This document shows positions 34,752-48,746 of a stretch of DNA of 64,000 nucleotides, piece by piece; position 1 is the first letter of the stretch, and the number at the start of each line of letters is the position of its first letter. Source of the DNA: Paeniglutamicibacter quisquiliarum (lineage in GTDB: Bacteria > Actinomycetota > Actinomycetes > Actinomycetales > Micrococcaceae). Position numbers and translations under genes: made by a program. The stretch spans positions 124,001-188,000 of the forward strand of contig NZ_JAHRED010000006.1 in the NCBI RefSeq assembly GCF_019084045.1, written 5' to 3'. Under the pieces are notes generated by a model that saw only the letters and a program-made list of their open reading frames with translations, did no database searches and was not told the origin of the DNA.

Positions 34752-35459
34752 ATGGCAAAGCGCAGTAAAGCATTCGTAGCCGCCGCGGCGAAGATCGAAG
34801 AAGACAAGTTCTACGCTCCGGCCGAGGCAGTTGCCCTCGCCAAGGAGATCGCCTTCTCGAAGGCAGACGAGACCGTTGAGGTTGCTTTCCGCTTGGGCGT
34901 TGACCCTCGCAAGGCTGACCAGATGGTTCGCGGCACCGTGATCCTTCCCCACGGCACCGGCAAGACCGCCCGTGTCCTCGTGTTCGCAAACGGCGACAAG
35001 GCAGAAGCTGCAATTGCAGCCGGCGCCGACTTCGTTGGCTCGGACGACCTGATCGCCAAGATCGCCGGCGGCTGGACCGACTTCGACGCAGCGGTTGCAA
35101 CCCCTGACCTCATGGGCAAGGTCGGCCGCTTGGGTAAGGTCTTGGGTCCCCGTAACCTGATGCCGAACCCGAAGACCGGTACCGTGACCATGGATGTCGC
35201 CAAGGCCGTCAACGAGATCAAGGGTGGCAAGATCGACTTCCGCGTCGACAAGCACTCGAACCTGCACTTCATCATCGGCAAGGTTTCCTTCGATGCGCAG
35301 AAGCTTGCAGAAAACTACGCAGCAGCACTGGACGAGGTTCTTCGTTTGAAGCCTTCCTCTTCCAAGGGCCGCTACATCACCAAGGCCACCGTGGCCACCT
35401 CCTTCGGCCCGGGCGTCCCGGTCGATGCGAACGTGACCCGCGTGCTTTCCGAGGCCTAA
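34752..35459 (+). CDS. rplA: 50S ribosomal protein L1
   Basis: The 235-residue protein has the L1 core: [19 protein letters not shown], then [26 protein letters not shown] and VTRVLS at the end. L1 binds 23S rRNA at the E-site stalk and is the usual autorepressor of its operon. ATG 34752 follows AAGGAG. A terminator begins 17 bases after its stop. Confidence 0.98.
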
Positions 35460-35532: not shown

Positions 35533-35571
35533 CACCAGGACGAATCGGGCCGGCCCCGATTCGTCCTGGTG
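35533..35571. repeat. 17-bp perfect inverted repeat between rplA and rplJ
   Basis: CACCAGGACGAATCGGG (35533-35549) and its exact complement CCCGATTCGTCCTGGTG (35555-35571) are separated by only 5 bases. No T run follows on either side. It lies 16 bases after the rplA terminator. The purpose is unclear: second terminator, RNA-stabilising hairpin or protein site are all possible. Confidence 0.75.
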
Positions 35572-35850: not shown

Positions 35851-35878
35851 TTGTGGGATGCCACATTCCTGATATGGT
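35851..35878 (+). promoter_or_regulatory. Putative promoter of the structured intergenic RNA
   Basis: TTGTGG (35851-35856) and TATGGT (35873-35878) are separated by 16 bp. The -10 fits the TANNNT pattern. A transcript would begin near 35885 and run straight into the series of hairpins. Confidence 0.5.
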
Positions 35879-35881
35879 TAA

Positions 35882-36124
35882 GGGGTCGCGATCTGATCGC
35901 GGCCAGGTGACTACGTCACCACGCGCTCCATGGCGGAGACCCCAAGCCCCGCCCGAGCGTGTTACCGCAGCAATGCGTTCCCCCAAGTTGCATTGCTGCA
36001 TAGACGGGCCCCTCCCTTCCGCTATCCCCCAAGTTGCGGAACCTGAGGGGCCTGTCGTCTGTCCACGGCAGGTTCGCCCCTCGGGGAAGTTGCCTACAAC
36101 ACCTGGCTCCGATTTGGAGCCAGG
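35882..36124 (+). ncRNA. Structured RNA with paired C-rich loops (6C-like candidate)
   Basis: In order: CGCGAT/ATCGCG (35887-35901); GGTGAC/GTCACC (35906-35920), perhaps enclosed by GGGGTC/GACCCC (35882/35938); hairpin GCAGCAATGC/GCATTGCTGC (35967-35999); a 12-bp stem 36003-36014/36045-36056 containing TTCCGC/GCGGAA; and CCTGGCTCC/GGAGCCAGG (36102-36124). The two central hairpins expose 13-nt loops GTTCCCCCAAGTT and TATCCCCCAAGTT, nearly identical and C-rich. Two adjacent stem-loops with C runs describe the actinobacterial 6C RNA (reported with six or more Cs; here five). No coding frame is plausible. The 3' end is unknown; it could be separate or part of the rplJ leader. Confidence 0.5.
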
Positions 36125-36143
36125 GGCGCCACGCTGTTAGGCT
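36114..36143 (+). promoter_or_regulatory. Putative rplJ promoter
   Basis: TTGGAG (36114-36119) and TAGGCT (36138-36143) are 18 bp apart. A start near 36150 would leave a leader of about 210 nt before rplJ. The -35 element overlaps the last hairpin of the candidate ncRNA. Confidence 0.45.
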
Positions 36144-36265
36144 TGGTGATACCGAAGACCGTCGGTCGAGGATTGCTGTTCACGCCGCAAGACTCCGAAA
36201 GTCCCACAAAGGACGACCTGCGCAGGTGAACGAAGTGAATCTCCCGCATTTATTTGCGTGCTTTC

Positions 36266-36296
36266 CGCCCCGTGCATCTGCATGGGGCGTTTTTTA
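36266..36296 (+). terminator. Attenuator in the rplJ leader
   Basis: CGCCCCGTGCA (36266-36276) pairs with TGCATGGGGCG (36279-36289), with one G-T pair and a 2-nt loop, followed by TTTTTT. It ends 64 bases before rplJ, so it lies within the leader rather than after a gene. This is the layout of L10-leader attenuation, in which excess L10(L12) shifts the upstream fold to allow termination. The bases 36150-36265 would hold the sensing fold, which I have not resolved. Confidence 0.75.
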
Positions 36297-36359
36297 TGTC
36301 AGTATTCCTGGCCGGGCTGGATCGACTGGTTATCAGATCTATACCCCGGAAGGAGTGTT

Positions 36360-36914
36360 ATGGCAACGCCGACTAAGGTTTCCGCAGTAGAGGAAATCAC
36401 CGCCGACTTCAAGGAGTCGACCGCCGCTGTCCTGACCGAATACCGTGGGCTTACTGTTGCGCAGCTCAAGCAGCTTCGCCGTTCACTTGGTGCAGATACC
36501 AAGTACGCGGTTGTGAAGAACACCTTGACTGGTATCGCAGCAAAGGAAGCCGGCATCGAAGCATTCGAAGGCCAGCTTGCTGGTCCGACTGCTATCGCCT
36601 TTATTAAGGGCGACGCAGTTGCTGCCGCTAAGAGCCTCACGGATTTCGCTAAGGAAAACAAGCAGCTCATCATCAAGACCGGTTACTTCGAGGGCAAGGC
36701 CCTTGACGCAGCCGAGGTTGCCGCACTGGCAGCACTTGAATCGCGTGAGTTCCAGCTGGCACGTGTTGCCGGTGTGCTGCAGGCTCCGGCTTCCGCCGCA
36801 GTCCGCACCATCGAAGCACTGCGCGTCAAGCTCGAAGAAGCAAACGGTGGCGCTGCTGAAGCACCTGCCGAGGCCGAGGCACCTGTTGCCGAAGCCGCCA
36901 CCGAAGAAGCCTAA
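36360..36914 (+). CDS. rplJ: 50S ribosomal protein L10
   Basis: The 184-residue protein has the N-terminal rRNA/L11 contact region ([35 protein letters not shown]) and a C-terminal helix that carries the L7/L12 dimers, ending in an Ala/Glu-rich tail. ATG 36360 is preceded by GGAAGGAG. rplL follows after 68 bases. Its leader carries an intrinsic terminator. Confidence 0.97.
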
Positions 36915-48321: not shown

Positions 48322-48430
48322 TCTTCTCCCCGGCCGTGCCGGGGAGAAGAGCACGTAACAAGGCCGGCCCGTGCCGCGCTTCCCTTTCCTCGCAAGAGGT
48401 GCGGGGGAGTGCGGCACGGGCCGGCCTTTT
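48322..48430 (+). terminator. Tandem terminators after rpoC
   Basis: First, TCTTCTCCCCGGC (48322-48334) pairs with GCCGGGGAGAAGA (48338-48350), without a T run. Second, AGGCCGGCCCGTGCCGC (48361-48377) pairs perfectly over 17 bp with 48411-48427 and is followed by TTTT. The second is the stronger candidate. Confidence 0.8.
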
Positions 48431-48746
48431 AGTGCCCGAAATGCGGCATTGCCGTACACGTGCCCCGTCATGGGAACCCGGGCGGCGTCCGGCAGCAGTG
48501 TCCATGGACCATGGTTGGGGAGCGGCGATTCCGAGACTGGGTGAAATTACATCTAGTACAAATCTGTGGCCGGTGGACCCACTTTGCCTGCCGGGAGCTC
48601 CGGGGAAGGTGCGGGGCTCCGGGTCTTGCCTTGAATGCGCGCAACTGAGCGAGGACAAGTGTCTTGAACCCCAAACCAGTCGCACCTGCAACTAGTGGAT
48701 AAGTGCCCAATAGATTCCCGCAGTGGTTGCCCGCTGCCAGTTCCAG
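48431..48746. other. No gene recognised between rpoC and the HNH gene
   Basis: These 316 bases include short open frames on both strands with no family signature. I see nothing besides the end of the converging HNH gene nearby. Confidence 0.5.

Follow-up and report, generated by a model that had tools for sequence, protein, structure and literature searches.

A three-loop RNA between rplA and rplJ of Paeniglutamicibacter, probably a divergent variant of the actinobacterial 6C RNA

The 6C RNA of actinobacteria (Rfam RF01066; B11 in mycobacteria and cgb_03605 in C. glutamicum) is defined by a pair of stem-loops that contain at least six cytosines apiece (PMC8388888), and its loops typically hold six of them (PMC4046766). 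For B11 of M. abscessus, each C-loop on its own is enough for repression of a reporter carrying the eccB4 5′-UTR, and the RNA pairs with a G-run at the eccB4 ribosome-binding site, as judged from compensatory mutations (PMC10470900). Reports disagree on the direction of this regulation: a review has B11/6C acting on panD and dnaB, and one of its figure legends calls the regulation positive (PMC8628891). The RNA analyzed here was not found in the accessible parts of the open-licence literature on 6C RNA, on small RNAs of actinobacteria or Micrococcaceae and on rplJ, which is no proof of its absence there, and no paper on small RNAs of Paeniglutamicibacter was found in the same body of literature. 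A search of Weinberg 2010 (PMC2864571) gave no terms for 6C, and the available text of PMC8388888 names both 6C RNA and rplJ (the latter in its reference list) with no link between them found.

In the window, which is the whole analyzed stretch of 64,000 nucleotides from Paeniglutamicibacter quisquiliarum, a computed fold places five consecutive hairpins between two genes that we take to be rplA and rplJ from their protein sequences, ahead of the L10 leader of the latter (Table 1). An earlier note made from the letters alone had proposed two adjacent hairpins with matching loops. Both are real, and their loops, GTTCCCCCAAGTT and TATCCCCCAAGTT, agree at 11 of 13 positions; the count, however, was incomplete, as a third loop with the motif CCCCAAG lies in the hairpin before them. 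The RNA likely extends over approximately 180 nt (about 35884 to 36064) and comprises the 5′ hairpins A and B followed by the three C-loop hairpins. Over these 181 nt the predicted folding energy is −98.1 kcal/mol compared to −60.4 kcal/mol in shuffled sequences (z = −8.88), and none of 200 shuffles folded as well. The sequence CCCCCAAGTTG occurs twice in the window, both times within the RNA, while 100 shuffles gave a mean of 0.06 and never reached two. In contrast, the 7-mer CCCCAAG is not enriched across the window (13 found, 14.1 expected), and what is unusual is its placement in the loops of adjacent hairpins rather than its frequency.

Table 1. Features of the rplA-rplJ region, in window coordinates
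Feature	Position	Strand	Basis
rplA, upstream neighbor	34752-35459	+	ORF; gene name presumed from the protein
Promoter-like pair of the RNA: TTGTGG, 16-nt spacer, extended −10 TGATATGGT (35870-35878)	35851-35878	+	conserved motif
5′ hairpin A (GGTCGCGAT...ATCGCGGCC)	35884-35904	+	fold
5′ hairpin B (GGTGAC...GTCACC)	35906-35920	+	fold
Hairpin 1, first C-loop (GACCCCAAGC)	35921-35962	+	fold and covariation
Loop motif 1, CCCCAAG	35940-35946	+	within hairpin 1; overlooked in the earlier note
Hairpin 2, second C-loop (GTTCCCCCAAGTT)	35967-35999	+	covariation
Loop motif 2, CCCCCAAG	35980-35987	+	within hairpin 2
Hairpin 3, third C-loop (TATCCCCCAAGTT), 12-bp outer stem	36003-36056	+	covariation
Loop motif 3, CCCCCAAG	36026-36033	+	within hairpin 3
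Promoter-like pair of rplJ, separate: TTTGGA and extended −10 TGTTAGGCT	36113-36143	+	conserved
L10 (rplJ) leader, with attenuator terminator at 36266-36289	36150-36304	+	terminator scan; neighbor, outside the RNA
rplJ, downstream neighbor	36360-36914	+	ATG at 36360 within ORF 36258-36914; name presumed from the protein

Flanking regions were fetched through rplA from 15 genomes of the genus Paeniglutamicibacter. All three loop motifs lie within the rplA flank at 10 of the 15 loci and a divergent copy was found at another (L025), while the remaining four had different DNA after rplA or ended early. In three of the genomes behind these four loci, G002 (L036), G006 (L037) and G010 (L029), the RNA is farther off or on another contig. 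Altogether it is present in 15 of 15 genus genomes, a tally made up of 12 genomes by search, G005, G012, and G011, the last counted through a separate record (L151) that is taken to be the same genome. Two genus genomes have a nitrate-reductase-alpha-like gene (identified by eye) 3′ of rplA (L014, L023), and in both the RNA is nonetheless located close to the L10 leader (L037, L151). An inverted repeat with 17-bp perfect arms, CACCAGGACGAATCGGG and CCCGATTCGTCCTGGTG, 5 nt apart, was also observed between rplA and the RNA (35533-35571).

Covariation among relatives, which the earlier note had proposed as a check on the structure, was strong. In a first alignment of 10 sequences, both-side changes occurred in 25 of 57 pairs; hairpin A had at least one such change in five of its nine pairs, and the six pairs of hairpin B were kept in 8 to 10 of the 10 rows with no both-side change. 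The main alignment contains 16 homologues (15 distinct) from three genera, aligned to model R1, which was built from the genus of the window. Here 38 of 42 pairs show a both-side change, distributed over hairpin 1 (helices 1 and 2, 12/13), hairpin 2 (helix 3, 9/11, with 98.2% of cells paired) and hairpin 3 (helices 4 and 5, 17/18). Such a change is seen in 96 cells (19.5 in shuffles), and the share of paired cells reaches 96.4%, compared with 38.6-43.4% when the structure is slid along the alignment. The alignment was fitted to R1 and is hence biased towards the structure; considering these controls and the many different pair types, a covariation artefact is unlikely. The loops are near invariant, with CCCC(C)AAG in nearly all rows and slight departures in L025 and L100. 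Covariation also rules out chance hairpins. A frame of 95 amino acids (35853-36140) spans the RNA, and the paired changes and indels look unlike those of a coding sequence. Of the further flanking hairpins reported by the earlier note, two after 36060 were not conserved among the six sequences compared, the second of them overlapping a conserved CGATTT(GG) in the promoter region of rplJ.

The promoter-like pair in front of the RNA, also pointed out in the earlier note, would put its start near 35884. Its extended −10 has a TGnTAnnnT counterpart ahead of the RNA in all 18 loci examined (two of which, L088 and L122, are probably from the same organism). A strict sigma-70 scan lists no promoter here. 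By a rough estimate such a motif is expected by chance in approximately 1 in 10 such stretches. Since so short a motif often matches by chance, the steady distance from hairpin 1 is the stronger sign of a promoter: it is −48 to −56 in 17 loci and −29 in L087, where the match may be a different site. The region before rplJ contains TGnTAnnnT in six of six sequences and CGATTTGG or a form with one change in five of them (shortened in L016). Given the conserved motif upstream of the RNA and a separate promoter-like pair of rplJ ahead of its leader, the RNA is most likely a transcript separate from rplJ. The terminator scan listed only the rplJ attenuator and not hairpin 3. A T run follows hairpin 3 in several relatives (L017, L019, L022 and L164) and is weak in the window, and this hairpin possibly doubles as the terminator stem. 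The L10 leader (RF00557) is the immediate downstream neighbor of the RNA and a distinct element; its match (36134-36304, 21.5 bits, below the cut-off of 44) begins after the RNA without overlap. An L10-leader motif lies 78-290 nt downstream of the RNA in all 18 loci. The attenuator in the window is strong (CGCCCCGTGCATCTGCATGGGGCG, then TTTTTT), and the L10 leader in L087, with 34.8 bits, is also under the RF00557 cut-off.

Compared to 6C RNA, the RNA of the window likewise has consecutive hairpins that expose C-run loops and comes from an actinobacterium, with covarying stems and a conserved C-rich loop. It differs in having three C-loops instead of two, with shorter runs (C4, C5 and C5, then AAG), in its two extra 5′ hairpins and in its score with the Rfam 6C model (28.4 bits, E = 0.16), which falls below the cut-off of 47. 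The likeness to 6C suggested by the earlier note is hence supported, while plain membership is not. The place differs as well: this RNA lies between rplA and rplJ, whereas the regular mycobacterial 6C gene is linked to Ms1 RNA (PMC9569102).

Matches to Rfam 6C above the cut-off were obtained in 5 of 39 genomes searched, none of them among the 15 genus genomes, and so no better 6C candidate was seen in the genus. Matches under the cut-off occur elsewhere in five of its genomes (G001, G004, G006, G007 and G012); three loci (L007, L009 and L010) were inspected as sequence, and L007, one of these 6C-model matches, reached 21.6 bits with R1. The copy in genus g11, which likewise lies between rplA and the L10 leader, reaches 49.6 bits with Rfam 6C, above the cut-off, and 40.3 bits with R1 (E = 3.6e-8 in 54,588 bases), aligned over its three hairpins. 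Three C-loops also occupy this place in two more genera, g37 and g44 (the latter Zafaria, going by its match to locus L122). Synteny, in the sense of the shared place and promoter motif, together with the R1 alignment, points to common descent of the window RNA with the recognized 6C member of g11. Because a copy at the same place both passes the 6C model and is found by R1, the RNA would be a divergent 6C orthologue that fails the formal test, and we read it as a lineage variant of actinobacterial 6C RNA. The earlier note had left the choice between a variant and a separate class; the former fits, and a wholly separate class is probably not the case given the g11 copy. A 6C RNA can drift below its family model and yet keep its position and loops, and 6C-type RNAs are therefore probably undercounted; here, a three-loop variant occupies a stable place beside ribosomal-protein genes.

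Other C-loop families were also considered. ErsA is a small RNA with a C-rich loop; its Rfam family (Pseudomon-1, RF01719), a Pseudomonas family by name, matches the g11 copy weakly (27.9 bits, cut-off 50). ANTAR-target RNAs consist of two stem-loops with hexanucleotide loops, and this family was rejected on loop size, the C-loops here having 8, 11 and 13 nt and the 5′ loops 3 nt in the fold.

Several searches addressed the distribution of the RNA. In a scan of named genomes, all 117 stretches were searched with R1 and ten gave strong loci, nine of them from the genus (L151, L161, L164, L172, L178, L180, L187, L189 and, assigned by its sequence, L217) and the tenth being L122 of Zafaria; the other 107 stretches scored at most 29.3 bits. 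Within a subset of 37 stretches, the best R1 scores (L201, L197 and L207) came from simple repeats. Model R2, applied to 394 genomes of the class, found only the copy of the window itself, under stricter filters and with few family members among the matches listed. R2 also hit the window at 48357-48506 (21.8 bits), which was judged to be a terminator-like chance match. The loop pattern CCCCAA/CCCCAAG/CCCCAAG matched in 22 of 396 genomes of the order, including two matches in the genome of the window (G000), namely the RNA and a second locus, L073. Matches outside this genome look like coding sequence or tandem repeats, judged by eye from the first 80 letters, unfolded. In a survey of 30 Micrococcaceae genera, the RNA was found at rplA-rplJ in three; in 20 of the 30 no L10-leader motif was detected, only the first ~700 nt having been read, and absence from other Micrococcaceae is a weak conclusion.

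The second locus of G000 (L073:1440-1720, minus strand; contig C30 near 18895) encodes an RNA in which a long stem encloses three CCCC(C)AAG loops. Its stems are unrelated to those of the rplA-rplJ RNA and its loops are the same, so that it seems to be the loop rather than the stem that is kept. This type occurs in five genus genomes (G000 and four relatives: L051, L052, L053 and L055), between one nitroreductase-like and one membrane-protein-like gene as judged by eye. Its pairs are mostly invariant, with both-side changes in 2 of 89, and the structure is less well tested than that of the rplA-rplJ RNA. L073 has no Rfam match up to E = 0.5. More than one C-loop RNA locus per genome is likewise reported for mycobacteria (PMC9569102); there, however, the additional copies resemble regular 6C in structure, whereas L073 has different stems and an enclosing stem. 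Having two RNAs that share their loops in one genome allows a clean test of whether the loop sequence alone defines a regulon. In addition, genus g6 (L006 and L043-L046) has a four-hairpin RNA with runs of C5-C6 by eye, elsewhere in the genome; L006 scores 46.3 bits with Rfam 6C, just below the cut-off, and neither rplA nor rplJ was recognized by eye in the flanks of L006 and L043.

With respect to function, we consider it fairly probable that the RNA is a free-standing 6C-variant small RNA whose C-loops act as antisense to G-run ribosome-binding sites. Beyond the structure, conservation, position, shared promoter motif and link to 6C computed here, we infer the transcription and termination of the RNA, its base-pairing, its targets and the direction of its regulation. 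An extended −10 promoter of its own would yield a small RNA of ~180 nt (near 35884 to 36064) ahead of the rplJL transcript, in which three hairpins would keep the CCCC(C)AAG loops single-stranded and open. Each loop would serve as an interchangeable antisense arm. It would pair in trans with ribosome-binding sites that contain a G-run, for example CUUGGGGG immediately ahead of AUG, on several mRNAs and so alter how these are translated, a block being the most likely effect.

The support for such antisense pairing from searches for targets was mixed. The pattern CTTGGGG-N(4-12)-ATG occurred 425 times in five genomes against 237 for a backwards control, with sites having two ATGs counted twice, and CTTGGGGGAA-N(1-10)-ATG occurred 26 times in 15 genomes against 2, with one site counted twice and near-identical genomes counted separately. 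The longer complement, AACTTGGGGG-N(3-12)-ATG, was not enriched (17 vs. 14 in the control). GGGGGAA-N(1-10)-ATG is common in itself (1270 vs. 268), and the share preceded by CTT (26/1270 vs. 2/268) does not differ significantly (Fisher p = 0.21); hence ordinary Shine-Dalgarno sequence may account for most of the excess of CTTGGGGGAA. Among 40 CTTGGGGG sites fetched in G000 and G001, 24 precede a frame of more than 60 codons, and on visual inspection a minority of these 24 resemble gene starts. Two candidate targets emerged: a putative secreted protein of 179 amino acids, with CTTGGGGG kept in five of five orthologues and the gene present in 5 of 15 genomes, and a 281-amino-acid protein with no Pfam match (three of three orthologues; 3 of 15 genomes). 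A further conserved case, a protein with a partial M10-peptidase match, is found in two genomes. Duplexes of the two candidates with loops 2 and 3 were predicted at −17.6 to −20.5 kcal/mol, the cost of opening structures being left out. Neither candidate gene is genus-wide, whereas the RNA is.

Other readings of the same data differ in what the loops would bind. CsrB and RsmZ have hairpins that bind CsrA, and by analogy each CCCCCAAG loop might bind one putative C-run-binding protein which the RNA titrates. This is consistent with the recurrence, within one genome, of the full motif of 7-8 nt, AAG included, in a pair of RNAs whose stems are unrelated, with CCCCCAA loops in the three-hairpin RNAs of three actinobacterial MAG records, with several loops per RNA (three here and four in g6) and with the lack of enrichment of the antisense complement AACTTGGGGG before ATG. 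Such a decoy is nevertheless unlikely, as the title of Mai et al. 2019 speaks of action independent of RNA chaperones, and B11 acts through direct pairing shown by compensatory mutations (PMC10470900). A broader form of the idea is likewise put forward as a rather improbable suggestion: actinobacteria might have a network of CCCCCAAG-loop RNAs, in which each genome encodes several whose stems are unrelated and which present two to four loop copies to a common partner, possibly a C-run-binding protein and not only mRNA. If true, 6C would represent a single branch within a wider, loop-defined class.

The position of the RNA could also suggest a cis-acting leader of the rplJL operon working together with the L10 leader, since an L10-leader motif follows on the same strand at every one of the 18 loci and the RNA stays near it even in the two genomes where other genes follow rplA. 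However, between the RNA and rplJ lies a conserved promoter-like pair belonging to rplJ (six sequences), which also has a leader and attenuator of its own, the spacer varies in length, hardly any pairing is predicted between the loops and the start of rplJ (−3.7 to −4.8 kcal/mol), and R1 matches an RNA with three C-loops in a different g37 genome (L039) that is placed between other genes as judged by eye, all of which makes a leader quite improbable. Convergence is just as hard to credit: a separate class would have to be 6C-like by chance and sit by coincidence where g11 has its 6C RNA. The sub-threshold Rfam score, the three CCCCAAG loops against the two hairpins modeled by Rfam and the failure of R2 to find anything beyond its own copy in 394 genomes of the taxonomic class all fit such a separate class, whereas position, orientation, TGnTAnnnT and the L10 leader are common to g11, where the R1 alignment spans the three hairpins. 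The free-standing antisense RNA of 6C descent is the reading we prefer.

A few additional C-loop candidates were observed in passing. A third RNA, with two CCCCCAAG loops, is present in genome G008 (L054:1498-1596, minus strand), and weak R1 matches were also seen at G010:C2:9330 and G007:C2:64520. The three-hairpin RNA of the MAG records (L116:7239-7363, plus strand; L156:4497-4625, minus strand; L176:5142-5270, plus strand) has no Rfam match up to E = 2. These records are labeled Ferrithrix thermotolerans, Actinobacteria bacterium and Actinomycetes bacterium, and the loops of their RNA are tight CCCCC loops, of which two out of three have a UU/AA closure.
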